IMG/VR virus record: IMGVR_UViG_3300028844_001239 | Location: 1-41,930 of that record | Origin: a virus | Length of the DNA stretch: 41,930 nucleotides | Strand: one strand, 5' to 3' | Part shown: one piece after another, positions 1 through 18,864 of the stretch | Numbering within the stretch: position 1 is the stretch's first letter | Layout of the letters: every line of letters starts with the position of its first letter | Position numbers and translations under genes: made by a program | The notes under the pieces: generated by a model | What the model was told of the DNA's origin: nothing | The model's input: only the letters and a program-made list of their open reading frames with translations | Database searches by the model: none

Positions 1-607
1 TAACTTTCTTGAGTTGGTTCGTAAATGTAACCTTCATAGCAAGATAGTTGTTGACAGTATACTTGAAGAATGAAGCTTCTACAGGAGACATGGTGATAGT
101 CTGTGCAGGGTTAGCCAAAGAGAAGTAGTTATACAATCCTTCTAAGTGGGATGCTGCTTCCTGCTGCTGTACACCAAAGATTCTATAACGTGCATTAGTC
201 ATACCTTCTTTGGCATTACTCTCATTTAAGAACTCAGGCTCATATACAATACGCCCATCGATACGTGATAAACGATCAATAACGTCAGGTGTGACAGTTG
301 ATTTGATTACAATAAATGCATCAGTCTGATTTACTAAACGCATTACAGCATCATCAATAGCCTTAGTATCAATGCCACCGTCATCAGATGCAGGTGTGGG
401 CAAGCAAATAAACACACAGTTTGGTTGCCATGCACAAAGATCTTGTAGTGTGCTATCACTAACCTTTGGATCTACAATAAACTTCTCAACAGAGTTTGTA
501 GAGAAAATATAGTCAACGGCTTTACCTACAAAGCCATGTCCAATAATACCTAGTTTAAAGTTTTGCTCTCTGCGTTTTACTACAGGTTGCAGTTCAGGTT
601 CTTCCAT
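1..607 (-). CDS. UDP-glucose/GDP-mannose 6-dehydrogenase family protein, partial
   Basis: The 202 visible codons read open to the window edge, so the C-terminal part is missing. The N-terminus has a Rossmann NAD-binding loop (GIIGHGFVGKAV, about residues 19-30), then family landmarks in order: CLPTPASDDGGID, IKSTVTPD, EPEFLNESNAKEG and EASFFKYTVNNYLAMKV. Family members oxidise the 6-hydroxymethyl group of a nucleotide sugar to a uronate with NAD+. The catalytic Cys region would lie outside the window. The ATG at 605-607 overlaps the end of the upstream cytidylyltransferase gene by 14 bases, which supports this start. It closes a run of sugar-nucleotide genes. The family is confident; the exact substrate is not determinable. 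Confidence 0.85.
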   Translation of the reverse strand, partial: MEEPELQPVVKRREQNFKLGIIGHGFVGKAVDYIFSTNSVEKFIVDPKVSDSTLQDLCAWQPNCVFICLPTPASDDGGIDTKAIDDAVMRLVNQTDAFIVIKSTVTPDVIDRLSRIDGRIVYEPEFLNESNAKEGMTNARYRIFGVQQQEAASHLEGLYNYFSLANPAQTITMSPVEASFFKYTVNNYLAMKVTFTNQLKKV

Positions 608-1034
608 CTTCTATATCCTTCATAAGCTCTTTGTTATATACTCTTTCCCTCAAGTCAGTAGAGGAAAATCTATGATCTCTTTTGTTATACTTTATCTCAA
701 TACCCCTTTTGGCACATATCTTTCTGCCTGTAAAGGTAGTATCTTTATACTCTTCTCCGATTATTCTAACATGTATTTCAAACAATTGCAAGATGTCTTC
801 TAAATCTTTTTCAGATTCATAAGGAATTATTTCATCCACATACTTAACCCCCTGTAGTTGAGTCCATCTCTCAACTAGACTTTGAACTGGTGGATTTTTT
901 TCTTCTCTGTCTTTAGATGGATCTACCTGCAATCCACATATCAAATAATCGCAATGGTTTTTTGCTTCTCTTAACATAGCAATATGACCTGCGTGAAGCA
1001 AGTCAAATGTGCTAAATGTGATACCTGTAATCAT
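594..1034 (-). CDS. Cytidylyltransferase-like protein (TagD/glycerol-3-phosphate cytidylyltransferase family)
   Basis: This 146-residue protein has the nucleotidyltransferase signature at its N-terminus (TFDLLHAGHIAML, with the HxGH motif at about residues 14-17). Near the C-terminus it has SSTDLRERV, which matches the ISSTxLR element of TagD-like enzymes. The length fits the family. Such enzymes couple CTP to a phosphorylated small molecule (glycerol-3-phosphate, phosphocholine or a sugar phosphate). Its ATG overlaps the stop of the cupin gene as ATGA, so translation is probably coupled. Neighbours KdsA, KdsB and a nucleotide-sugar dehydrogenase point to activated-sugar supply. The substrate is unknown. 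Confidence 0.85.
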   Translation of the reverse strand: MITGITFSTFDLLHAGHIAMLREAKNHCDYLICGLQVDPSKDREEKNPPVQSLVERWTQLQGVKYVDEIIPYESEKDLEDILQLFEIHVRIIGEEYKDTTFTGRKICAKRGIEIKYNKRDHRFSSTDLRERVYNKELMKDIEDGRT

Positions 1035-1510
1035 GTCTTTAAATATGGTCCATCTTCATCACGATCAATGGTAAACGTCACTGAGCTTCCGTCTCCTCGC
1101 TGAAAGCCAAGGGCAGTTTCATCGTATGTGGTGGAAACAGATATAGTATCCTCATCCTCTTGATCATCCATATGATAACCAACAGACTCACGTTCAATAT
1201 CGTTGTGATTAAACTCTGCCCAATAGAGTTCGTATGCAACTCCTATTTCTAGGCATTCGAACTGATGATAAAGACCAGGCTTAACCTTATGATAATCGCC
1301 TTCATTGAGAATCGTAACATCACATAAATCATAGTCACGTTGCCATGTACGAATAAGCATTCTGCCTGACTCTACATAGAACCCATTCCACTTATAGCGG
1401 TGCAAATGCTTAGAACATACACCACCCTCTTCCATTTCAATACGATGAAACTCTAAAGCACCATTTGCTTCAATCAGTTGTGTCGTACCCCATACTTTAC
1501 CTGCTTTCAT
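1031..1510 (-). CDS. Cupin-fold protein
   Basis: This 159-residue protein carries a single cupin domain. Metal-ligand-like residues sit in KHLHRYKWNGFYVESGRM (about residues 34-51), and a second motif follows at GDYHKVKPGLYHQFEC. The N-terminal KVWGTTQLI resembles the start of phosphomannose-isomerase-type cupins. The C-terminal third is acidic and unrecognised. It lies between kdsB and a cytidylyltransferase gene and overlaps both, so a role as a sugar isomerase or epimerase, or a metal-dependent accessory in sugar metabolism, is plausible but inferred. The ATG start overlaps the kdsB stop. Confidence 0.7.
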   Translation of the reverse strand: MKAGKVWGTTQLIEANGALEFHRIEMEEGGVCSKHLHRYKWNGFYVESGRMLIRTWQRDYDLCDVTILNEGDYHKVKPGLYHQFECLEIGVAYELYWAEFNHNDIERESVGYHMDDQEDEDTISVSTTYDETALGFQRGDGSSVTFTIDRDEDGPYLKT

Positions 1511-2174
1511 TCCATATCCTCACATCTTCTGGTGTATTAATTTCAACTCCGTTAAACACGCATGGCAATACACCGATATCCCATCCATTCTTTAGCCAAC
1601 GCAGTTGCTCTAGTTCTTCGATCCGTTCTTCACGTGTGCCTGTCAAACTAGGATACATTTCTAGTACATTACGTTTGTATCCATAGATTCCTAAGTGCCA
1701 ATCACCATATCCTGTCATACCTCTTCCAAACCACAAACATTTATCAGAAGCTCTTATTAGCTTAACAGTATTAGGATCATTCAGTTGTTCCTTCGGCATC
1801 ATTGCACACATGGTAGTAATACTGTAGTTTTTTAAATGCCAAACAGTCTTTTCAATCATTTCTTGTGTTACATCAGGCATATCACCTTGTACATTTATAA
1901 ACTGATTATACTTATTAAAAAAGTCATTAGCGATTGCGCCAGAACATCTATCAGTACCATTATCATAATCGATTTGATCAATCCAACACTTCTTGGGTCC
2001 AAATAGATTATAGATCCTCAAGTCATCTGTTAGTACAAAGGTGTCTAATCCAGATTTCTTACATTCATTATAAACACGAACAACCATAGGAACACCATCT
2101 AACTCAGCTAATGGCTTGCCAGAAAAACGTGTGCTACCATATCTAGCAGGTATAAGAATAGCGGTAGATGTCAT
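1497..2174 (-). CDS. kdsB: 3-deoxy-manno-octulosonate cytidylyltransferase (CMP-KDO synthetase)
   Basis: This 225-residue protein makes CMP-KDO from CTP and KDO. It opens with the nucleotide-binding signature IPARYGSTRFSGKPLAEL. It continues with DNGTDRCSGAIA (the GTDR element), INVQGDMPDV (the family QGDxP metal-binding stretch) and HLGIYGYKRNVLEMY, and ends with EQLRWLKNGWDIGV and EINTPEDV. All are KdsB landmarks. It is slightly shorter than typical bacterial KdsB (about 245-250 residues). The ATG lies inside the kdsA 3' end (32-base overlap), so the two consecutive pathway steps are translationally linked. KDO is normally the inner-core sugar of Gram-negative LPS. Confidence 0.93.
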   Translation of the reverse strand: MTSTAILIPARYGSTRFSGKPLAELDGVPMVVRVYNECKKSGLDTFVLTDDLRIYNLFGPKKCWIDQIDYDNGTDRCSGAIANDFFNKYNQFINVQGDMPDVTQEMIEKTVWHLKNYSITTMCAMMPKEQLNDPNTVKLIRASDKCLWFGRGMTGYGDWHLGIYGYKRNVLEMYPSLTGTREERIEELEQLRWLKNGWDIGVLPCVFNGVEINTPEDVRIWNESR

Positions 2175-2907
2175 TCACTGTCCTTTCAAAATCTTCTAAC
2201 CTTAACATATTAGAACCATCACTTGGAGCATTATCAGGGTCTGCATGTACTTCTAGGAAAAAGTTTTTAACGCCCATAGCAGAGGCAGCACGAGTAAGAC
2301 TTGGAACGTAATCACGATTACCGCCACTCGATTTCCCCTTTCCTCCTGGTTTTTGGACAGAGTGGGTAATATCAAAAACAATAGGTACATCGTAATAGTC
2401 AAGCATATACTGAATCCCAGTAAAATCAACAACCAAAGTATTGTATCCAAAACTTGTACCTCTTTCTGTGATCCAGACTTCTTCAGCTTCTTTTGTTTTA
2501 GAGAGAACACCATGCATATCCCATGGTGCTAAGAACTGACCTTTCTTGATGTTGACAATCTTACCTGTTAAACAGGCGGTTAGCAATAGGTCTGTCTGCC
2601 TACATAAAAATGCAGGTATTTGTATCACATCAACGAAATCTTTGACTATATCAATGTCATCTTCTGAATGTACATCAGTGAGGATCTTAACATCAGGAAA
2701 AGTTTTCTTTATCTCTAAGAAATCCTGTATAGTCTTGATCATACCTCTACCACGAAATCCATCAATATGGGTTCTATTGGCTTTGTCGTATGATGCTTTA
2801 AAGATGTATTCAATATTCAGTGAATCGCATACACGCTTACACTCCTTGGCAATCTCTAACGATTGCTCTAATGTTTCATGTTGACATGGACCAGCAATAA
2901 TTCTCAT
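2143..2907 (-). CDS. kdsA: 3-deoxy-8-phosphooctulonate synthase (KDO-8-P synthase)
   Basis: This 254-residue protein condenses phosphoenolpyruvate with arabinose-5-phosphate to give KDO-8-phosphate. Motifs in order are IIAGPCQHETLEQS, FKASYDKANRTHIDGFRGRG, LTDVHSEDD, IQIPAFLCRQTDLL, NIKKGQFLAPWDM, FDITHSVQKPGG and FLEVHADPDNAPSDGSNM. These cover the PEP- and A5P-binding residues. The length is just below the usual 275-285. The first ATG overlaps the preceding 49-residue gene as ATGA. No KdsD isomerase or KdsC phosphatase is seen in the window, so the phage would rely on the host for those steps. Confidence 0.95.
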   Translation of the reverse strand: MRIIAGPCQHETLEQSLEIAKECKRVCDSLNIEYIFKASYDKANRTHIDGFRGRGMIKTIQDFLEIKKTFPDVKILTDVHSEDDIDIVKDFVDVIQIPAFLCRQTDLLLTACLTGKIVNIKKGQFLAPWDMHGVLSKTKEAEEVWITERGTSFGYNTLVVDFTGIQYMLDYYDVPIVFDITHSVQKPGGKGKSSGGNRDYVPSLTRAASAMGVKNFFLEVHADPDNAPSDGSNMLRLEDFERTVNDIYRYSYTC

Positions 2908-3053
2908 TTGGCGCTCAGTTCTGTAATACGCTTGTGTGCAGAGTTTAGCTGTTCTTGTAAATCTCTTACGTTTTTCTTTAACATTTCTATTGTTTTACCT
3001 TGAGAAATAATGATCTTTCTATTTTTCTCTGCTTCCATTTCATCTGGTAACAT
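2904..3053 (-). CDS. Small coiled-coil protein, 49 aa
   Basis: This short gene fills the space between the glycosyltransferase and kdsA genes. It starts at ATG 3051-3053, with a purine-rich GGGAGTAGG stretch just upstream, and ends with a TGA that overlaps the kdsA ATG. The product begins MLPDEMEAEKNRK and is charged, with heptad-like spacing of I/L/V from about residue 14 to 46, so a short coiled coil is likely. I do not recognise a family. The ATGA coupling and the ribosome-binding site make it a credible gene. Confidence 0.65.
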   Translation of the reverse strand: MLPDEMEAEKNRKIIISQGKTIEMLKKNVRDLQEQLNSAHKRITELSAK

Positions 3054-3056
3054 GTC

Positions 3057-3965
3057 CTACTCCCAATAATCATCAATAGTACGTCTACCAATGTTCTCTC
3101 TACCGATATCTATAAGCTTCATGCCATACTCAGGATCTTTAGAGTATTCTACGCCATCAACTTTTATTAATCGGTTCTTTCTAAATGGCCTGTAGTCAAC
3201 ATGATGATGCCACCGATTAAACTTCCAAACCACTTCTGTAACATCAGGATGCATTTCCTTTAGCATTTCTGACTTAGGTAGCGTACCCTCTTCAGCATAG
3301 AACTCTTTTGTATTACCACCACCTACACGTTGAGTTGTACCCTTGTCAGCTAGAAAGGCATTGAACTGTACAGTACACCAACCATCCTTTAATGCCCTTA
3401 GAGACAGATCAGTATCTTCATTATATCTGCCACGCCATCTGTAAGGAATATCATTACGGATCAGCAGACACGAATATATTCTTGTATTAAAGATAAGAGG
3501 TGGCACAGGATCAGTAGCCTTACAAAACTTACTATAGTTTGGTCCTGCAATAGCAACATTAGTATACCTATCACAGAAGTCTTCCATAGCCCTGAACCAT
3601 GACAGTGTTCTGACCGCAACCTTTACGTTCCTATTTAGACGGTGAAAGTCATAGATGTTGTCATCCATAACCCAATGCCATTTAGAACCATACGTCTGTA
3701 TAGAATGATCATGTGCAAAGTTCCTAGCAGCGCCTGGCCCCTTGCTCTTAGTATCCTCTAAATCATCAAACGTATCATAAGTATTCTGATATATCGGATC
3801 AAGAACCAATAGCTTATCACGATCAAAGTGCTCTGCATATCTGTCTAGCTGATCTTCTTCAACCACGATATGATAGTCCACAGAAAGCCTATCAAGAAGC
3901 TCTGCAGTCTTGCACTGATCCCAACGGTTCTTGGAAACCACATATACAGGATACTTATTTCTCAT
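3057..3965 (-). CDS. TAGT-type (TET/JBP-associated) glycosyltransferase
   Basis: This 302-residue protein resembles the phage TET-associated glycosyltransferase (TAGT) family, also related to GREB1. It starts with a nucleotide-sugar-binding-like strand (YPVYVVSKNRWDQ), then GPGAARNFAHDHS, then HWVMDDNIYDFHRLN with an acidic DDN that probably binds the metal and sugar donor. It continues with NTRIYSCLLIRNDIPYRWRG, RYNEDTDLSLRALKDGW and FNRWHHHVDYRPF. TAGT proteins are predicted to add sugars to hydroxymethylated bases in phage DNA; this is known only from comparative genomics as far as I recall. It overlaps the methyltransferase-like gene upstream (ATGA) and lies next to KDO synthesis genes. 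Donor and acceptor are unknown. Confidence 0.8.
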   Translation of the reverse strand: MRNKYPVYVVSKNRWDQCKTAELLDRLSVDYHIVVEEDQLDRYAEHFDRDKLLVLDPIYQNTYDTFDDLEDTKSKGPGAARNFAHDHSIQTYGSKWHWVMDDNIYDFHRLNRNVKVAVRTLSWFRAMEDFCDRYTNVAIAGPNYSKFCKATDPVPPLIFNTRIYSCLLIRNDIPYRWRGRYNEDTDLSLRALKDGWCTVQFNAFLADKGTTQRVGGGNTKEFYAEEGTLPKSEMLKEMHPDVTEVVWKFNRWHHHVDYRPFRKNRLIKVDGVEYSKDPEYGMKLIDIGRENIGRRTIDDYWE

Positions 3966-4468
3966 TGCGGATTATTTACCCAATAGATTGTGTTTGGTGG
4001 CAGGAACCCATGAATAAACCAAGCGTTGCCAAACATAGGAGACCCACCACCTGTGAAGTCCACACGATTATTATAAACCAATGCAGACATACCATAGTCC
4101 ATGAACATTTGTCCACGTCTTTTACCTTGAAATGATGCAACAGGCAAGAACAACGCAAATGGCTTGCCTAGATCATAACAATGTCTGATAAACTTATCCT
4201 TTAGACTGTAGGGTGGATTTGTAATAACACCATCATACACATCACCATACACACAATCAAAGAAGTCACGTCCATCAGATCCAACCATATTATAGCCGTA
4301 TTTGTGAAATCCGTCAAGTATATTCGAACTCTTTCCACTCGTAGCTTCGTAGTAGGTTTTATCTTTATCTAAGTATTCTAGTAATGGCAGAACTTGATCT
4401 GATGGTGTATAGCACTCATCACTCTCTGCAGTATTAGAAAGTTGTTTCAGAATGTTAAGACTAGTCAT
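3962..4468 (-). CDS. DNA N6-adenine methyltransferase-like protein (NPPY)
   Basis: This 168-residue class I methyltransferase-like protein has the NPPY catalytic motif (ITNPPYSLKDKF, about residues 79-90) preceded by a compact SAM-fold (YYEATSGKSSNIL, then GSDGRDFF). FALFLPVASFQGKRRG follows the catalytic motif. It is short, with no obvious target-recognition domain. Phage homologues are usually annotated as adenine-specific DNA or RNA methyltransferases. It overlaps the TAGT gene (ATGA), so both may act in nucleic-acid modification. The substrate is unproven. Confidence 0.7.
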   Translation of the reverse strand: MTSLNILKQLSNTAESDECYTPSDQVLPLLEYLDKDKTYYEATSGKSSNILDGFHKYGYNMVGSDGRDFFDCVYGDVYDGVITNPPYSLKDKFIRHCYDLGKPFALFLPVASFQGKRRGQMFMDYGMSALVYNNRVDFTGGGSPMFGNAWFIHGFLPPNTIYWVNNPQ

Positions 4469-8179: not shown

Positions 8180-8927
8180 TCAGCTATTATAATATAGTTT
8201 ATTTAGAAAGTCAACCGCTTTTGGATGCATTTGTTTATTACATCCTTTGCACGGAGATTTTTCTCTTTTTCCTTTTAGTAAATCTTTTTGAAATGATTTT
8301 AAAATATCGTTCTCAGACAAGTACTCTTTTATTGTTTGTGTATGAACATTCTCTAACACAGTTGGATTGAACCACTCATTACAACACAGATTGTAATCGC
8401 CATTGTAGTTTATATATACAACATAAAAGGGCTTTTCACAAAACAGCCCATACTTAGGGTGTCTAGGATTAGATTGTGTTAGTTCATTTTCGATTGCGCC
8501 AGCTCTGTTATGATATACATTTTTTGCGCTAGTGCGTTTGTCTACAACATGAAAATCATATTTATCTGTAGCTTCTTGTGGCGTTAGTTTAGACTCGTCA
8601 TAAATGCTATAATCTACTTTATGTAGTTTATTTATCTTATCAAGGTATTTGTCTACTCTATTTCCATTAGTAGAAAGCTTTACCTTAAAGGCAGAAAGCT
8701 TGTCAAGTATATCTGAAAAGTTTGGATGTAGTGTTGGTTCTCCCCTTCCAGATATGTGAAAGGTAACACTTTGTATTTCTTTTGCATGTTTTATAATAAC
8801 ATCTAAAGTATCCAAAGACATGTTTAGATTTGAGTTAGGATAACCAGAACTCCTTGGACAAAAAGCACATTTCATGTCACAGAGTTCTGTTATATTTAAT
8901 TCAATAATAGTTATAGATTTTTTCCAT
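8180..8927 (-). CDS. Radical SAM protein, 5' end frameshifted at an A6 run
   Basis: The open frame encodes the radical SAM core, with a CxxxCxxC cluster motif at [10 protein letters not shown], then [11 protein letters not shown] (GGE-like) and [12 protein letters not shown]. The C-terminal region has further cysteines (FCEKP, CCNEW, CKGC) that could bind an auxiliary FeS cluster, SPASM-like. The first Cys of the motif lies upstream of the only in-frame ATG (8873-8875), so that start would give a dead enzyme. An ATG at 8925-8927 followed by an A6 run (T6 at 8918-8923) would give [20 protein letters not shown] if one A were removed. The true start is therefore probably 8927 with a one-base indel. 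The substrate is unknown. Confidence 0.75.
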
Positions 8928-11844: not shown

Positions 11845-12366
11845 TTAAGACCAACCAAAAGAAAATCCAACTCTAGAACTATCAGGCACTGCACAATGAA
11901 ATACGCCTGTAGGCACATATACAAAATCACCCTGTACTAGTCTTTTAGAGAATGTAGACTTCGTAGTCATACTCTGTGTACTATCATTATAGTCACAACC
12001 ATTCTCAAAGATTTTCCAAGGCATAGATCCTTTTATCATCACAAAGAATACTTCCATACCATCTTTGTGAGGTGGAGATGCTAGAGCGTTAGGACTAAAA
12101 CCTGCATAGCAATGGCAAGATATATCTAAAGTGTTAAGTATCTTTCCTAATTCAACTTTGACATTTCTAACAATAGAAAAATCATTAGTTTCAACATTAG
12201 CCCATATCTTGTGCGGATCTCTTGCTCTAGTATTGCCATTAAGAAATGATTGATCGAAGTACGGTACTAGATCATCCCAACTAGGAAAAACATTTTTAGA
12301 AAGATCTAACTGTCCATGAAATGCTTTCCTATTTGCTATAGCATCTGCTAGTCCGTCTGGGATCAT
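11845..12366 (-). CDS. JmjC/cupin-like Fe(II) oxygenase family protein
   Basis: This 173-residue protein has an HxD...H metal triad: His100-Lys-Asp102 in SPPHKDGMEVFFVMIKGSMP and His157 in YVPTGVFHCAVP. The pattern (HxD, then K/G-x-W, then GDxxYVPxGxxH) is that of JmjC/cupin_8-like 2-oxoglutarate-dependent hydroxylases acting on proteins or RNA, or of a non-enzymatic cupin. The ATG follows the regA stop by two bases. It lies at the end of the regA-gp62 run. The substrate is unknown. Confidence 0.65.
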   Translation of the reverse strand: MIPDGLADAIANRKAFHGQLDLSKNVFPSWDDLVPYFDQSFLNGNTRARDPHKIWANVETNDFSIVRNVKVELGKILNTLDISCHCYAGFSPNALASPPHKDGMEVFFVMIKGSMPWKIFENGCDYNDSTQSMTTKSTFSKRLVQGDFVYVPTGVFHCAVPDSSRVGFSFGWS

Positions 12367-12765: not shown

Positions 12766-13149
12766 TTATTTTCTTCCACCTTTGTTCACCTTCTTTTTTA
12801 TTATTATTATTTGTTCAGGTGATAAGAGGGGTAGAACTTGTTTGGCTTTGTCTTTACTGTAACCATAGTATTCTTGTACCGCATCAATATCACTTTCACT
12901 TTCGGCTTTCATCCATTTCGAAAAACGTTTCCGCTTTCGAACTATATTTATAAGAAAGTGATATTGTAGTTTATTGTCAAGATGATGGTACTGGTTCACC
13001 ACATTAGCAAGACCAACAGTGTCATTAAAATAAGAAAGAGACCTATTAGTATGAAAAGGGCTATATCCTCGTTCATCTATGTCATCCTTCATTATGTCTT
13101 TTTTGTTGTCGTTAATACTTGTTACATAATCAAAAAGTTTAGGCATCAT
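12766..13149 (-). CDS. 62: Clamp loader small subunit (T4 gp62-like)
   Basis: The product, 127 residues from ATG 13147-13149 (an adjacent ATG at 13146 is better spaced from AAGGA), begins MMPKLFDYVTSINDNKKDIM. It continues with YSPFHTNRSLSYFNDTVGLA, HHLDNKLQYHFLINIVRKRK and EYYGYSKDKAKQVLPLLSPE. This pattern matches gp62 of marine T4-like phages, which are shorter than T4 gp62 (187). It forms the 4:1 gp44/gp62 clamp loader. Its start overlaps the glutaredoxin stop. In T4 it directly follows gene 44; here about 4.7 kb of cargo separates them. Confidence 0.88.
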   Translation of the reverse strand: MMPKLFDYVTSINDNKKDIMKDDIDERGYSPFHTNRSLSYFNDTVGLANVVNQYHHLDNKLQYHFLINIVRKRKRFSKWMKAESESDIDAVQEYYGYSKDKAKQVLPLLSPEQIIIIKKKVNKGGRK

Positions 13150-13442
13150 ATTCCTTGTTCTATTCCACTGTCCTGCCAAGGCCATTCGGTCAAGGTAGTT
13201 TCCATAATCAATCGTTCAAGTTCTTCAGGAGTATATTCTCTGGTATTAGGATTAGTATTTATATGTACATCATTCGCATACAACTGAGGTACAGTTCTAT
13301 GACCCTGTTCTTTCATAAATGCTAAAGCCATTTCATCTTCTTTAATATCTATAGTATAATACGAAATATTTACTTTGTCTAGCATTTCTTTCATTAAATC
13401 GCAAAAACCACAATTTGGTTGGGTGTATAATCTTATGCTCAT
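13146..13442 (-). CDS. grx: Glutaredoxin
   Basis: This 98-residue thioredoxin-fold protein has a CGFC active site (YTQPNCGFCDLMKEML, Cys at about residues 11 and 14), the cis-Pro motif RTVPQLY and the C-terminal helix EYTPEELERLIMETT. The ATG at 13440-13442 follows AATAAGGAGAAG. Phage glutaredoxins usually reduce ribonucleotide reductase; here the nearest redox enzymes are the island's desaturase and oxygenases. It sits between the desaturase and gp62 genes. The C-terminal tail (TEWPWQDSGIEQGI) is an extra, unassigned extension. Confidence 0.9.
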   Translation of the reverse strand: MSIRLYTQPNCGFCDLMKEMLDKVNISYYTIDIKEDEMALAFMKEQGHRTVPQLYANDVHINTNPNTREYTPEELERLIMETTLTEWPWQDSGIEQGI

Positions 13443-13455
13443 CAACTTCTCCTTA

Positions 13456-14172
13456 TTAATTCTTTAGACAATATTTTATTACCCAACCAGTAGGATCTAA
13501 CTGATACCATTTAACTTGATTTGAATATCTACTACTATCATCATGATGATTCTTATGCCAACCCTCACCGACTGTAAGTATTGCACATAAGATATTGTTA
13601 TTAGGTTTACCCCCAAAGTGGTTTAACCAGTTCAGAATTATTCCTGTAGAATAAAATGCATAAAGATTAACAGTACCCATAACAAGTCCGGGAAGCACTG
13701 GATCAATCAGCAATAGTATTAGATTAATAGTGAATATAACTCTAAAGTAATGTTTTTGACAACGCTTAACGTGTTTATCCGTAATAAGATCTTTGATCAA
13801 CCTTCTATGTAGTTTAGGTTCTTTATAAAATCCTAATAATATTTGCCACCATTTAAGAGTGGTTGGTGAATGAATATCTTCTTCTGTATCACTGTGCTGA
13901 TGATGCCATCTATGGATTGCACAAATAGTAATCGGCTTACCAATACCCTGAATTGCGCCTAACCACAAAAGAATGAATTTTCGGATACTTCCTGTTTGAT
14001 AACTTCTGTGGATAAAATATCTATGCCATCCTGCATACCCACCTATCATTACTACGAGAACTGCCCAAACAATCGATGCAGCCATAGTATATGTAGATGA
14101 GTTAAGAAAACTGTATAGAACAGTAAAATGACTACTCAGCCATAATAATCTTAGTTTAGTTGCGTATGTCAT
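13456..14172 (-). CDS. Membrane fatty acyl desaturase (delta-9/stearoyl-CoA type)
   Basis: This 238-residue membrane protein has the three histidine boxes of the acyl-CoA/acyl-lipid desaturase family: HRYFIH (50-55), HRWHHQH (87-93) and HKNHH (206-210), plus the accessory NHFGG near 184. Together these bind the diiron centre. Hydrophobic segments flank the boxes (about 30-48, 66-84, 143-175). It inserts a double bond in an acyl chain using O2. It is shorter than many relatives but keeps all ligands. The start overlaps the upstream stop as ATGA and the gene closes the metabolic island. Phage relatives occur in marine T4-like phages. Confidence 0.9.
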   Translation of the reverse strand: MTYATKLRLLWLSSHFTVLYSFLNSSTYTMAASIVWAVLVVMIGGYAGWHRYFIHRSYQTGSIRKFILLWLGAIQGIGKPITICAIHRWHHQHSDTEEDIHSPTTLKWWQILLGFYKEPKLHRRLIKDLITDKHVKRCQKHYFRVIFTINLILLLIDPVLPGLVMGTVNLYAFYSTGIILNWLNHFGGKPNNNILCAILTVGEGWHKNHHDDSSRYSNQVKWYQLDPTGWVIKYCLKN

Positions 14173-14756
14173 ACCTCAGATAACCTTGATATAAAACTTT
14201 CGTCTATATTATCATTAAACTTCCAAGTGCTAAAATAATATATAGTTTGATCAACACCACGAAAGTTAGCCTCTGTCCACTTCATATCAGCACGATTTCC
14301 CATGATTAGTCGCAGCAGTTTTTCGTTCTTCCATTTGCCGATATCTTTATTTATAGATAAGTGCCTAGTAAAGAAAACAGTGTCTATATTATCAGATTCT
14401 AGCATAGGCTGAAGATGCTTTCTATACATATTATGCTCTTCTCTTAAAAATCTTAAATCTAGTTTTTTAAATGAGTTAAGCTTATACCATCTACTAAAGG
14501 TTCTTATAACATTTGATGGTAGATTGTCGTATTGATTGGCAAACCATCCCATAAACGGCTTGTCATTTTGCAACCAAAGAACCGCATACTTAAAGTTATA
14601 TTCAGAAAGTCTTTGGTAAGTAAATGGATCATCAATAAGAGACTTTGTGTTTCTTGTGTCTGTTCCTACAGACCAAATAAATTCATCCACGTACTCATCT
14701 CTGCGATCAGTAATATAAAGTTCATATCCATTTTCATCAGGCTGTCGAAGTAACAA
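14169..14756 (-). CDS. Unknown protein of the halogenase/adenylase island, 195 aa
   Basis: I do not recognise this family. It is soluble, rich in aromatic and charged residues (YAVLWLQNDKPFMGWFANQY, KKLDLRFLREEHNMYRKHLQ, TIYYFSTWKFNDN). It has alternating alpha/beta character that could fit a small acyl- or acetyltransferase, but no signature is visible. The only reasonable start is TTG 14754-14756, preceded by GAGGA, overlapping the adenylation-enzyme stop by 20 bases; the next ATG is about 68 codons in. Its stop overlaps the desaturase ATG. Coupling on both sides suggests it works in the same pathway. Confidence 0.6.
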   Translation of the reverse strand: MLLRQPDENGYELYITDRRDEYVDEFIWSVGTDTRNTKSLIDDPFTYQRLSEYNFKYAVLWLQNDKPFMGWFANQYDNLPSNVIRTFSRWYKLNSFKKLDLRFLREEHNMYRKHLQPMLESDNIDTVFFTRHLSINKDIGKWKNEKLLRLIMGNRADMKWTEANFRGVDQTIYYFSTWKFNDNIDESFISRLSEV

Positions 14757-15738
14757 TTTCTTGATTCCTCTTCACTTTTCTGAGATTATCGTCAACTTCA
14801 ATACGACTAACTTTCTTAGGTACAACCTCATAAGCACAGTGATGCTTAGATACAAAATCCTTTTCATCCATATTTCCAGTATAATAAATCACACACTGGT
14901 GGTTAACTTTCTGACAAAGTGCTAAGTCTGCACCACTGTCAACCGCAACCTTCTCTAGCTGTTCAGGATATACTCTGTCTCCACAGTTTTCCATTTTAAA
15001 AGCATTGTGCTTTCTACCTGCAAAGAAAAACTCACCATCTTCAGTATACTCTATAAGATCTCCACTGTACCACCAATCATCCTGATCTTTATATTTACAT
15101 GCCCATTCTATAGATCCATCTTCATGATTAATGTTTTTATAATCGATCATAGGATTGATATCATTGAAGTGATATATGTCCTGCTTCTCAGTTGACATAA
15201 TCAAAGGTGGAACTTCAGTGCTTCCATATGCAGTATTAACTTTCTTAGCACCTTTAGCTCTTAGATCTTCCATCATACCATTAGGTGTCACGTCACTACC
15301 AACTTGAGCTAGTCGAATATTACTAAGATCAAGGTTCTTCCATTTTTTATGTTTATGCCATGTCTTCCAAACATTAGGTAAGATTAGTGTGTGAGTGGGA
15401 TTGATTTCTTTAAGTCGATCAGGATAGTTCGACACAGTAGTTTCAATGAACACGTCACAGTTGGCAACTGCACATGGATACAGACTCATTGTAGTAAATC
15501 CAATACCTCTTGGATTGTACAGTGCCAACATACTACTATTAGAGTTTAAGTCAAAATATTCTGCGTTATACTCAGCTATTGAACGCATAAGCTTTTCATT
15601 GTGAGTAAACACTTTAGGCTTGCCTGTAGTTCCACTTGTTGAAACTGTCACGTTCCAGTTTTCTAGGTAATCTATAACTGATGATCGAACATGATCATTA
15701 TCACAATCTAAATACTCTATACCGTCAATGTAAATCAT
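14737..15738 (-). CDS. Minimal AMP-forming adenylation enzyme (ANL superfamily)
   Basis: The 333-residue protein carries the core ANL motifs: P-loop TSGTTGKPK (34-42), AYGSTEVPP (170-178), WYSGDL (223-228), GRKHNAFKM (241-249) and a C-terminal lysine in LRKVKRN (319-325) at the A10 position. It activates a carboxylate as acyl-AMP and may pass it to CoA or a thiol. The P-loop starts only about 34 residues in, so the usual long N-terminal subdomain is nearly absent; most relatives have about 500 residues. The gene overlaps both the halogenase and the 195-residue gene. The substrate cannot be read from the sequence. No carrier-protein gene is visible nearby. Confidence 0.88.
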   Translation of the reverse strand: MIYIDGIEYLDCDNDHVRSSVIDYLENWNVTVSTSGTTGKPKVFTHNEKLMRSIAEYNAEYFDLNSNSSMLALYNPRGIGFTTMSLYPCAVANCDVFIETTVSNYPDRLKEINPTHTLILPNVWKTWHKHKKWKNLDLSNIRLAQVGSDVTPNGMMEDLRAKGAKKVNTAYGSTEVPPLIMSTEKQDIYHFNDINPMIDYKNINHEDGSIEWACKYKDQDDWWYSGDLIEYTEDGEFFFAGRKHNAFKMENCGDRVYPEQLEKVAVDSGADLALCQKVNHQCVIYYTGNMDEKDFVSKHHCAYEVVPKKVSRIEVDDNLRKVKRNQEIVTSTA

Positions 15739-17377
15739 TTTCTAAAACCTCTGAATATGTTGCACCATCATACATTTTTTCTCTCAAGTAGTCATATATA
15801 TGAGGCGCATATTCAGATAAAGCTTCACCTTTATTTTTTATAAAATCAAAGTTAGCCTGTGCAAGTGGCATAAGAGATTCATTTATTTGTATATCGCAAT
15901 AATCGTCAAAATGATCAAGATATAACTGCTGTTGCGCCCACTGATAATCTAAAAATATATTACGACCTGTGTAACCTCTTGGTGACCTGTATTCTTGCCA
16001 GTTCTTTATGGCATCCTCTGAGTTGTTACCCCACTTTTTCCACATAGGAGAGTCCTGTCTCTTAGACAATGTGAAGTGATAGCTAATAAAATCTGCTATT
16101 TGTTTCTCTAGCTTTTGTTGATGTTTACTATAGGCTTTTTTAGATATTTCTGGTATATCCATATGTGTATACTTTTGCAATACCTGATCTAGAATTTGTA
16201 TACAACTCTGCGCTACGTAAATACTATTAGCTTCCATAGGATCAACAAATCCCTGACCCATACCAACACCAACAACATTTTTTACCCAAGCATCTTCATA
16301 CCAACCAGATTCCCATTCAATTAATCTTGGTTCTTTTATGAAGTCATACCCATTCCAATACTTAATGAAACGCTCTCTAGCTGAGTCGGCATCTTCTGAG
16401 TTCTTATCGAAGATATAACCAGATCCCATTCGACTATACAATGGTATAATAAAGTTCCAGCCATTCTTTTGGGCATAACTTTGAGTGTAAGGTCTCATCT
16501 CTTTATAAGGATCTTTATATTTTACAGGCGCAACTACTGCAGATTGCGTAGGCAGATGAGTTAACTGTTTCCATCTAGTAGGCATCTGTTTCATTAACAA
16601 TCTATGAAATCCTGTGCAATCAACAAAGATATCACCTTCAATATTACTACCATCTTTTAAATCTAAAGATGATATATTACCATCATCAGATTTGTTTATC
16701 TTATGAACATACCCCTGTATCCATTCAACGCCAAGAGGAAGAGCAACCTGTTCTCTTACAATGACAGGAAATCTTTCAGCATCAACGTGCCATGCATAAC
16801 TTCTCAAATCCCCTGTAAGCAAATCATCTTCCATATCGTAAGGAGATTTATTTTTCATAGCAAAGTGATATTGGTCACAAGTATACTCTGCGACATCCTC
16901 AACTGAAATCACGCCATCTCTAACTAACTGTAACGCATAGTCATAGCTTTTATTATCTACACCAAACTTACCATTATTGTCATAAAAGAAGTCTTCCTGT
17001 TTTAGTTTATTATAAAAGCTTTTCTTGAACACACCATCTCTATGTGTCAACGAAAAATGATAAAACTGTCTTTGGGATTTAGGCGCATTCCAATGATCAG
17101 TAACATGGGGTTTATCTGTTTCGCTATTCCAACCTACAAAATCATTACCTAACTTGTAGATAGATCTAGTTCCTTTCATCCATGCTTTTTCATCAACATC
17201 TAACCAAGATAGCATGTCTCCAAGTTGGGGAATAGTGCTTTCACCGACTCCTAAAATAGGTACTTCAGGAGACTCTACCAATGTAATCTTCAGATTACTT
17301 TTTGAATGTCTTTTAGCTAACAGTGCTGCAGTAAACCATCCTACAACACCGCCCCCAACTATAACTATTTTTCGCAT
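15725..17377 (-). CDS. Flavin-dependent (tryptophan-type) halogenase
   Basis: This 550-residue protein starts at ATG 17375-17377, overlapping the oxygenase stop; a TTG start 12 bases upstream is less likely. FAD-binding GxGxxG is at residues 8-13 (GGGVVG), then LGVGESTIPQLGDML (42-56), Lys75 in IYKLGNDFVGW, WNFIIP at 307-312 (family WxWxIP with Phe for the second Trp) and GFVDPMEANSIYVAQ (376-390) with Glu382. By motif alignment Lys75 and Glu382 match the catalytic Lys/Glu pair of PrnA/RebH-type halogenases. Relatives occur in marine cyanophages; one, VirX1, has been reported to iodinate many substrates. No flavin reductase gene is seen. The substrate is unknown. Confidence 0.93.
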   Translation of the reverse strand: MRKIVIVGGGVVGWFTAALLAKRHSKSNLKITLVESPEVPILGVGESTIPQLGDMLSWLDVDEKAWMKGTRSIYKLGNDFVGWNSETDKPHVTDHWNAPKSQRQFYHFSLTHRDGVFKKSFYNKLKQEDFFYDNNGKFGVDNKSYDYALQLVRDGVISVEDVAEYTCDQYHFAMKNKSPYDMEDDLLTGDLRSYAWHVDAERFPVIVREQVALPLGVEWIQGYVHKINKSDDGNISSLDLKDGSNIEGDIFVDCTGFHRLLMKQMPTRWKQLTHLPTQSAVVAPVKYKDPYKEMRPYTQSYAQKNGWNFIIPLYSRMGSGYIFDKNSEDADSARERFIKYWNGYDFIKEPRLIEWESGWYEDAWVKNVVGVGMGQGFVDPMEANSIYVAQSCIQILDQVLQKYTHMDIPEISKKAYSKHQQKLEKQIADFISYHFTLSKRQDSPMWKKWGNNSEDAIKNWQEYRSPRGYTGRNIFLDYQWAQQQLYLDHFDDYCDIQINESLMPLAQANFDFIKNKGEALSEYAPHIYDYLREKMYDGATYSEVLENDLH

Positions 17378-17892
17378 TCTAAAAACCAAGTAACTAATAC
17401 AAGTCTTCGTCCTTGCTGCACTTCATAAACCCCATGAAATAGATTGGGGCTATATATCAAAGTATCTCCATTATAAACTGGACCAGGCATCATAGACCAC
17501 ACACTTTCAGCCTTTTCATCCTTTGCAAAGTAAGCTTGACCGCCTTTTAAATCACTTGATATATCAATCATAGTTATAACTGAAAGGTGAGACTGCTCTA
17601 AAGAATCACGATGACCTTTGCACCAAGAGCCTTCTACATAATCAATTAACTTTGCAGACCCTGGTTTATATTTTCGGTTTGTGGTTCTTTCTATCATGGG
17701 TTTTATAATGTCAATAGTCATATCTAAAATAAGTTCATCACGTACTTCAGCTTGCCAAGTTTTCATGACATTGTAGTTTACTTCTAAGTATTTTTTATTC
17801 TCTTCAAAATAATCAGTCAAGTACTTACAAGCACTTTGAGATAATGTTTTTTCATTCATAGCAATAAACTGTGTATCTTTAATATTGATCAT
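17365..17892 (-). CDS. 2-oxoglutarate/Fe(II)-dependent oxygenase (prolyl 4-hydroxylase type)
   Basis: This 175-residue protein has the double-stranded beta-helix triad: His94 and Asp96 in CKGHRDSLE, His153 in YSPNLFHGVYEV, and 2OG-binding Arg in QGRRLVLVTW (162-163). The order and spacing match P4H-like dioxygenases common in marine phages. It hydroxylates (or otherwise oxidises) a substrate using O2 and 2-oxoglutarate. The start overlaps the gp44 stop (ATGA) and the stop overlaps the halogenase start, so it is the first gene of the metabolic island. Protein or small-molecule substrates are both possible. Confidence 0.88.
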   Translation of the reverse strand: MINIKDTQFIAMNEKTLSQSACKYLTDYFEENKKYLEVNYNVMKTWQAEVRDELILDMTIDIIKPMIERTTNRKYKPGSAKLIDYVEGSWCKGHRDSLEQSHLSVITMIDISSDLKGGQAYFAKDEKAESVWSMMPGPVYNGDTLIYSPNLFHGVYEVQQGRRLVLVTWFLECEK

Positions 17893-18827
17893 TTAAATCT
17901 TACCTGTGCCATTATTTCTGTCATACACGCTACAATATTTAGCTCATGATCAGCAACGAATGCATCTTTATATTGATAGTCTGCTAATATAAGAATGAGT
18001 TGCGGAATGCTCTGAGATTCTACATACTCATTAACATTATCGTATAGAGAACGAAATATTGCATTAGTATCCATATCCATATTGTCAACAACCCAACGGC
18101 GCATGCCCTTGAAGTTCTTGTCTTTTAGTGCAGATACCAAGTTAGATATATTGCTGTTGCCACTACTGTCAACCACACTAATGCTACCGTTACCGCCAAT
18201 CGAATATCTTTGCGCCTCATTAAGAACTCTTCTCCAATCAGGCGCATGCTTCATAACTAAATCCACAGAAGCCTTCTTATCAATGTTTACACTCTCTTGT
18301 GATAATATATATAAAAATCTCTTATGGAACTGTGCCGCAAGTTGAGCAAGATCTTTCTTAGTTGTATTGAACTCATACACACCACAACGTGAATGTAAAG
18401 GTTCGATAATACGATTCTTGAAGTTGCATGTGAGAATAAACCTACAGTTATTACTGAACTCTTCTATGAAGGCACGTAATGCAGGTTGAGTTGATTGCGG
18501 ATTTAGATAATCAGCCTCATCTAGGATAACAACCTTGTAGCCACCCTGCAGAGAAACTGAGGATGCAAACTGTTTAATCTTTCCACGTAAGGTATCAATA
18601 TTACCTTCTTCTGAACCATTGATTAGAATATAATCTAAGTCTAACTCATCACACAAAGCTTTTGCTACAGTAGTCTTACCAAGACCTGCAGTGCCTGTGA
18701 ATAACATGTTTGGAAGTTCTTTAGTTGCTACAATAGCTTTAAAGGTATCTTTAAGCGATTTAGGTAATACACAATCGTCAATAGTGTTTGGGCGATACTT
18801 TTCTACCCACAAAAAATCTGTAGTCAT
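17889..18827 (-). CDS. 44: Clamp loader large subunit, AAA+ ATPase (T4 gp44-like)
   Basis: The 312-residue protein has an N-terminal FLWVEKYRPNTIDDC, Walker A TAGLGKTT (about 46-53), Walker B VVILDEADYLN, sensor LTCNFKNRIIEP and the arginine-finger SRC motif (LHSRCGVYEF). The helical collar follows. It loads the gp45 clamp onto DNA with gp62. An adjacent ATG (18830) is an alternative; AGGA spacing favours 18827. It starts just after a terminator hairpin, with a TATAAT-like element in between, so it may have its own promoter. Confidence 0.97.
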   Translation of the reverse strand: MTTDFLWVEKYRPNTIDDCVLPKSLKDTFKAIVATKELPNMLFTGTAGLGKTTVAKALCDELDLDYILINGSEEGNIDTLRGKIKQFASSVSLQGGYKVVILDEADYLNPQSTQPALRAFIEEFSNNCRFILTCNFKNRIIEPLHSRCGVYEFNTTKKDLAQLAAQFHKRFLYILSQESVNIDKKASVDLVMKHAPDWRRVLNEAQRYSIGGNGSISVVDSSGNSNISNLVSALKDKNFKGMRRWVVDNMDMDTNAIFRSLYDNVNEYVESQSIPQLILILADYQYKDAFVADHELNIVACMTEIMAQVRFK

Positions 18828-18864
18828 CATAGTCCTAACGGATAAACATTATATAAAAGGTTAA

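Follow-up and report, generated by a model that had tools for sequence, protein, structure and literature searches.

A recurrent halogenase, adenylating enzyme and acyltransferase cassette in phages, with a proposed role in making a halogenated N-acyl compound

Halogenases encoded by phages are already known (PMC8407142, PMC10452541), and the characterised viral enzyme, VirX1 of cyanophage Syn10, prefers iodide and acts on free aromatics (PMC8407142). Phage-encoded biosynthetic gene clusters are described as rare, mostly bacteriocin-related and mostly carried by temperate phages (Dragos et al. 2021, via PMC10452541), and TyzA is an enzyme that N-acylates tyrosine or phenylalanine and whose cluster includes tailoring enzymes (PMC10404671). 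So far, viral halogenases have been viewed as stand-alone auxiliary genes for which no natural substrate is known. Here we describe a gene cassette in a viral DNA of 41,930 bases (the window; positions 1-41930 of the 44,317-base virus record IMGVR_UViG_3300028844_001239), located between the clamp-loader genes gp44 and gp62 of a T4-like replication module. Its core consists of a predicted flavin-dependent halogenase (HAL), a miniature AMP-forming acid-activating enzyme of the ANL family (ANL) and a protein that models as a GNAT-like acyltransferase (UNK). That these genes have a joint function is well supported. That they represent a mobile phage biosynthetic cassette, in which HAL, ANL and UNK or a second acyltransferase family make a halogenated N-acyl compound, we regard as an evenly poised proposal, supported by the gene families with their intact motifs, by the modelled fold of UNK, and by purifying selection, block transfer and recurrent gene pairing.

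The locus differs from each of the described systems. HAL shares the flavin-dependent halogenase fold and the catalytic Lys/Glu pair with VirX1 and with the tryptophan-halogenase genes of isolate cyanophages and pelagiphages, but the isolate-phage enzymes are only 24-30% identical to it. All sampled ANL-adjacent halogenases form one clade (100/97), separate from 10 of 10 sampled isolate cyanophage and pelagiphage halogenases, and the WxWxIP motif reads WxFxI in the window's clade. Furthermore, no ANL relative was found among 50,697 GenBank phage records, and the halogenases of cultured phages therein, unlike that of the window, have no such companion. With FeeM, TyzA and the LuxI-type synthases UNK has the GNAT-like fold in common (LasI is among its structural matches), yet no significant sequence relation, and the phage cassettes add an ANL enzyme and a halogenase. 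The jamaicamide pathway combines an ANL enzyme, a membrane desaturase and a flavin halogenase (JamA, JamB and JamD) with a carrier protein; the phage cassette differs in that a GNAT-like enzyme takes the place of a polyketide synthase (PKS) or nonribosomal peptide synthetase (NRPS) and that the T4-slot records lack a carrier protein. No core assembly enzyme (PKS, NRPS, ribosomally synthesised and post-translationally modified peptide system or similar) was recognised in the window island. With the phage-borne clusters covered by PMC10452541 it shares the fact that biosynthetic genes are carried by a phage, here as a small-molecule-like set next to a T4-like replication module. No description of this gene set was found in the literature searched, the coverage of which was partial.

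Co-inheritance of the core genes

The interval between genes 44 and 62 was read with profile hidden Markov models in 80 viral contigs, which had been chosen by gp44 alone as the nearest of at least 600 (contigs are cited by L numbers). The two genes are adjacent, as in T4, in 11 of the 70 intact intervals, and their distance ranges from 0 to 5.3 kb across these 70 phages. HAL, ANL and UNK occur together in six intact intervals, and none of the three is present in the other 64. A glutaredoxin gene, in contrast, is found in 39 of the 70, and 33 of these 39 belong to the 64 intervals without the cassette. The survey therefore identifies the slot as a hotspot, the glutaredoxin as a gene of the slot and the HAL-ANL-UNK trio as the cassette, although the counts are not independent because the surveyed phages are related. 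The glutaredoxin, which a sequence-only reading of the window had included in a biosynthetic island, was thus rejected as a cassette gene. The same reading had taken the 2-oxoglutarate (2OG)-Fe(II) oxygenase-like gene and the desaturase (DES) as fixed members, but among 18 intact cassettes, assembled from protein searches plus the window, they are present in 7 and 9, respectively. HAL and ANL are encoded in all 18 (ANL in decayed form in L021), UNK in 17, and the remaining one, the T4-slot phage L133, has a second-family gene at the position of UNK. The core is thus HAL, ANL and an acyltransferase, and the 2OG gene and DES are optional. In L142, a desaturase gene and a weak second-family match (24 bits) lie between gp44 and the glutaredoxin gene (L142:8436-9783), with neither HAL nor ANL.

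Between the window and L003, synonymous divergence (dS) is low in the cassette (HAL 0.16, ANL 0.24, UNK 0.24) and high in the flanks (gp44 2.28, glutaredoxin 1.44, gp62 1.55, regA 1.34), and HAL, ANL and UNK therefore moved as a block. Relative to the close relative L002, the ratio of nonsynonymous to synonymous change (dN/dS) is 0.065 for HAL, 0.091 for ANL, 0.078 for UNK and 0.048 for DES, and all four genes are under purifying selection; the 2OG gene, at 0.49, is held more laxly. A chance arrangement can be ruled out, because many viral contigs show the same order of genes and because these four ratios lie at 0.05-0.09.

HAL and ANL are paired in four genomic contexts: the T4 slot, the L072 type, the tail type and the ketosynthase type. 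In L072 and L073 they are either neighbours or stand one or two genes apart. In the tail type, the genes have a tail-fibre-like gene on one side and a radical-SAM gene on the other; their order is ANL, HAL and second-family gene in L079, L080, L101 and L103, whereas in L078 the second-family gene comes before ANL. In the ketosynthase type (L134-L137), ANL precedes HAL, and in L134 and L135, the two records read further downstream, a second-family gene, a ketosynthase, a desaturase and a 132-aa protein follow in variable order; two ketosynthase-type records encode an acyl carrier protein (ACP) elsewhere. The partners of the halogenase clade are thus either a mini-ANL or, in L134-L137, a distant full-length ANL, and either of two acyltransferase families without detectable relation. 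The sequence-only reading had staked its claim on co-inheritance as opposed to independent occurrence of the genes in other phages, and co-inheritance is favoured by the all-or-none trio in 70 intervals, the block transfer and the four contexts. Of the coherent biosynthetic island that it had proposed, the co-inherited core stands, whereas the glutaredoxin and the fixed status of 2OG and DES do not, and the HAL-ANL pairing is not absolute.

Two observations from these contexts may be added. A small DUF6356 membrane protein is encoded directly before ANL in tail-type phages (in L079 at L079:7653-7871) and in L077/L093, and a similar-looking protein follows ANL in L072 and L073. The operon at L135:8601-15341 comprises the full-length ANL, the halogenase, the second-family protein, the ketosynthase, the desaturase and a CxxC..H protein, with the ACP elsewhere in the record.

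Predicted activities of the cassette proteins

By family and motifs, HAL is a flavin-dependent halogenase with predicted activity. It matches PF04820 with 301.6 bits (cut-off 21). The hallmarks of these enzymes are a GxGxxG motif, a lysine (K79 in PrnA), a glutamate (E346 in PrnA) and the motif FX[DE]PX[EFL] (PMC8407142). In HAL we find GGGVVG at position 12 and FVDPME at 381, both invariant in the alignment, and the catalytic pair that had been recognised from the sequence was confirmed as Lys79 and Glu386, invariant in 11 of 11 aligned sequences. WxWxIP appears as WNFIIP; phenylalanine replaces the second tryptophan in every sampled member of the clade, and the proline varies. WxWxIP is missing from some active halogenases (PMC8407142).

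ANL reaches 54.8 bits against PF00501 (cut-off 29.9), but the match begins only at profile position 170. The protein starts about 33 residues upstream of the A3 loop, and with its 333 residues it lacks the usual N-terminal subdomain, whereas the core motifs A3, A5, A7 and A8 and the A10 lysine are present and nearly invariant (TSGTTGKPK, YGSTE, SGD, GRKHNAFK and RKVKR). Its structural model, of moderate confidence (pLDDT 70), matches MenE/4CL-type ANL enzymes and the 350-aa Dyadobacter protein 4gs5. We refer to it as a mini-ANL because other miniature ANL proteins exist, such as 4gs5, which it resembles in length (about 350 aa) and as a structural match at 15% identity. In the tree, the mini-ANLs form one group, and the full-length ANL of L134/L135 lies on a very long branch. 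The ANLs of the tail-type records L056-L065, which have no HAL, nest within the T4-slot ANLs, and ANL therefore also travels alone. Two scans of genome contigs for a cellular source yielded one distant Halomonas relative of ANL (23%) and no halogenase; these scans used two short peptide patterns, and absence is not established by them.

UNK belongs to no Pfam or NCBIfam family, and its single, weak PHROGs match covers 28 residues of a 'transcriptional regulator' (E 8e-4). Its AlphaFold2 model (pLDDT 83) gave 191 PDB matches at E<=0.001 in Foldseek, and the 50 listed were all GNAT-fold acyltransferases, with LasI at rank 19. By its modelled fold, UNK is thus predicted to be a GNAT-like acyltransferase. 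The putative second acyltransferase family comprises the tail-type genes, the L134-type genes and the gene of L133. It was considered whether UNK and this family are one sequence family, which was rejected, as hhalign shows no relation; the link between the two is their shared slot and gene order alone. TAL-effector matches obtained with the second family turned out to be an artefact, in which many copies of some 5 bits each add up across repeats.

Among the optional proteins, DES scores 40.2 bits against PF00487 (cut-off 29.7) and has the histidine boxes HRYFIH, HRWHH and HKNHH. The 2OG protein scores 23.9 bits against PF13640, where the cut-off is 27, with the HxD motif (HRD at 94) and H153..R present. 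L003, L004, L015 and L053 encode small CMD-like proteins that match PF02627 below the cut-off (E 2e-4 to 0.04) and resemble, by eye, the 132-aa protein of L134/L135; other relatives have a different protein with an HxD motif in this place.

The proposed pathway and its alternatives

In the pathway that we propose, ANL would adenylate a fatty or aryl carboxylic acid and pass the acyl group to coenzyme A (CoA), to a host ACP, or directly to the acyltransferase. The latter would transfer it to an amine, for which an amino acid or a similar small amine is the likeliest candidate. HAL, supplied by a host flavin reductase, could then halogenate an aromatic or unsaturated part of the substrate or product, and DES, the oxygenases and, in relatives, the CMD-like protein may tailor the molecule. 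The sequence-only reading had proposed that an acid is activated and then tailored; the activation was kept, and a transfer to an amine was added, as UNK is GNAT-like. The uses that it had suggested for the product (a small effector, a modified lipid, or a deterrent of superinfection or grazing) are at most candidate roles. The order of reactions, the identity of acyl group and amine, the product, the host and the benefit to the phage are all inferred. It is possible, and we put it forward tentatively, that phages, some of them with a T4-like module and probably lytic, have a dedicated pathway, reassembled repeatedly, by which a halogenated N-acyl small molecule would be produced during infection as a viral natural product, with a halogenase clade that is so far phage-only and varied ANL and acyltransferase partners. 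The steady company of ANL and acyltransferase in phages that are otherwise little alike makes the question of phage-halogenase substrates testable. If true, phage infection would yield a chemical product unlike the reported phage bacteriocin clusters, and the cassettes would supply new halogenases as well as adenylating enzymes of compact size.

Several observations weigh against such a pathway. No flavin reductase (PF01613) was found in 16 records searched, mostly fragments, the search of T4-slot records for a carrier protein was likewise negative, and a host flavin reductase, CoA or ACP must therefore be assumed; the partner reductase of halogenases can be replaced by another (PMC8407142). 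The canonical acyl-CoA motif [QR]xxGx[GA] is absent from 12 of 12 UNK sequences, as from 9 of 9 second-family sequences, and we therefore term UNK GNAT-like and not a canonical GNAT. The FeeM profile PF21926 does not match UNK, and it scores 12.8-15.8 bits with the second family (cut-off 27); as control genomes also match, a FeeM assignment was rejected as weak and non-specific. In L021, ANL has decayed to 216 residues with loss of the P-loop and C-terminus (L021:2910-3557), next to intact HAL and UNK, and ANL occurs without HAL in the tail-type L056-L065 and in many of L082-L113; the parts are therefore usable separately. Finally, pairwise distances of HAL, ANL and UNK correlate weakly (0.19-0.27), compared with 0.71 for gp44 versus gp62, and with 0.73 and 0.85 for DES versus UNK and ANL (28 pairs). 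Together with the block transfer, these correlations indicate that the gene set survives though single members have been exchanged. The decay and the weak correlations would also fit independent auxiliary genes that have gathered in a permissive slot, each acting alone on host metabolites without a shared pathway, as would the variable length of this hotspot, the cultured-phage halogenases without ANL relative and the tail-type ANLs without HAL. We nevertheless consider such independence rather unlikely, since the trio is all-or-none and was transferred as a block, and since members of one halogenase clade have, across contexts, partners from two lineages of ANL and from two families of acyltransferase.

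Two further explanations were considered. The cassette might serve in defence or receptor adaptation by attaching a halogenated acyl group to a macromolecule, which could be phage DNA, a tail protein or a surface glycan. The window indeed encodes a TET-associated glycosyltransferase, KdsA/KdsB-like sugar genes and a radical-SAM/SPASM protein, the tail-type cassettes have tail-fibre-like and radical-SAM neighbours, and Mom of phage Mu, a DNA-modifying enzyme, is GNAT-like. However, the glycosyltransferase is limited to 3 of the 19 records with a cassette or ANL, the 147-kb record among the 19 having none, Tet/JBP was not found in a search run without a positive control, and the desaturase, ketosynthase and carrier protein suggest lipid-like acyl chemistry, so that we regard decoration as unlikely. 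DNA hypermodification was rejected, with the glycosyltransferase unlinked to the cassette and Tet/JBP not found in that search without a positive control. It is very doubtful that the cassette remodels membrane lipids, which would yield an unusual desaturated, perhaps halogenated aminolipid that alters the infected cell's envelope. DES varies together with UNK and ANL, L142 combines a desaturase with a weak second-family match, and the ketosynthase-type phages add a ketosynthase, with an ACP in two records, but DES is missing from half of the intact cassettes and no lipid-specific gene was recognised. A halogenase is not known to be required for lipids of this kind.

Layout of the slot and other genes of the window

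The T4-like replication module of the window comprises a sigma factor, gp47, gp46, gp45, gp44, gp62, regA and gp43, with gp45-gp47 named from position and synteny with Phage C48C1. Profile searches confirmed the gene families first read between gp44 and gp62, the 2OG match lying under its cut-off, with open reading frames at the positions given and on the minus strand (Table 1). The end-to-start overlap of the first five genes was likewise verified and amounts to 25, 14, 20 and 4 nt from 2OG through HAL, ANL and UNK to DES; gp44 and 2OG overlap by 4 nt. HAL, UNK and the glutaredoxin gene were called with TTG starts, and an ATG is present as the fifth codon of HAL and as the second of the glutaredoxin gene.

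Table 1. Genes of the gp44-gp62 slot in the window
Feature	Position	Strand	Evidence	Status
gp44 clamp-loader large subunit	17889..18830	-	phrog_168 2.7e-114	slot left border
2OG-Fe(II) oxygenase-like	17365..17892	-	PF13640 E 8e-5, under cut-off; HRD at 94, H153..R	optional gene
HAL, predicted flavin-dependent halogenase, 554 aa	15725..17389	-	PF04820 1.3e-89	core gene
ANL, miniature AMP-forming acid-activating enzyme, 333 aa	14737..15738	-	PF00501 8.7e-15	core gene
UNK, predicted GNAT-like acyltransferase, 195 aa	14169..14756	-	predicted structure	core gene
DES, membrane fatty-acid-desaturase-like	13456..14172	-	PF00487 4e-10 and three His boxes	optional
Glutaredoxin (GRX)	13146..13445	-	PF00462 2.3e-15	slot gene, outside cassette
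gp62 clamp-loader small subunit	12766..13185	-	phrog_225 1.5e-42, PF16790 8e-11	slot right border

A cyanobacterial host was set aside, as psbA is absent from 19 records, mostly fragments, which is weak evidence. A JmjC/cupin-like oxygenase (11845-12366) immediately follows regA and is retained in most slot relatives, and a small radical-SAM/SPASM protein of 231 aa (8180-8875) adjoins gp43. The left part of the window (594-4468) encodes an RfaE-like adenylyltransferase, a cysteine-dioxygenase-like cupin and the TET-associated glycosyltransferase, and includes a partial DNA methyltransferase profile match. The same region contains a KdsB-like cytidylyltransferase and a KdsA-like protein of the DAHP-synthase family, which suggests CMP-Kdo synthesis.

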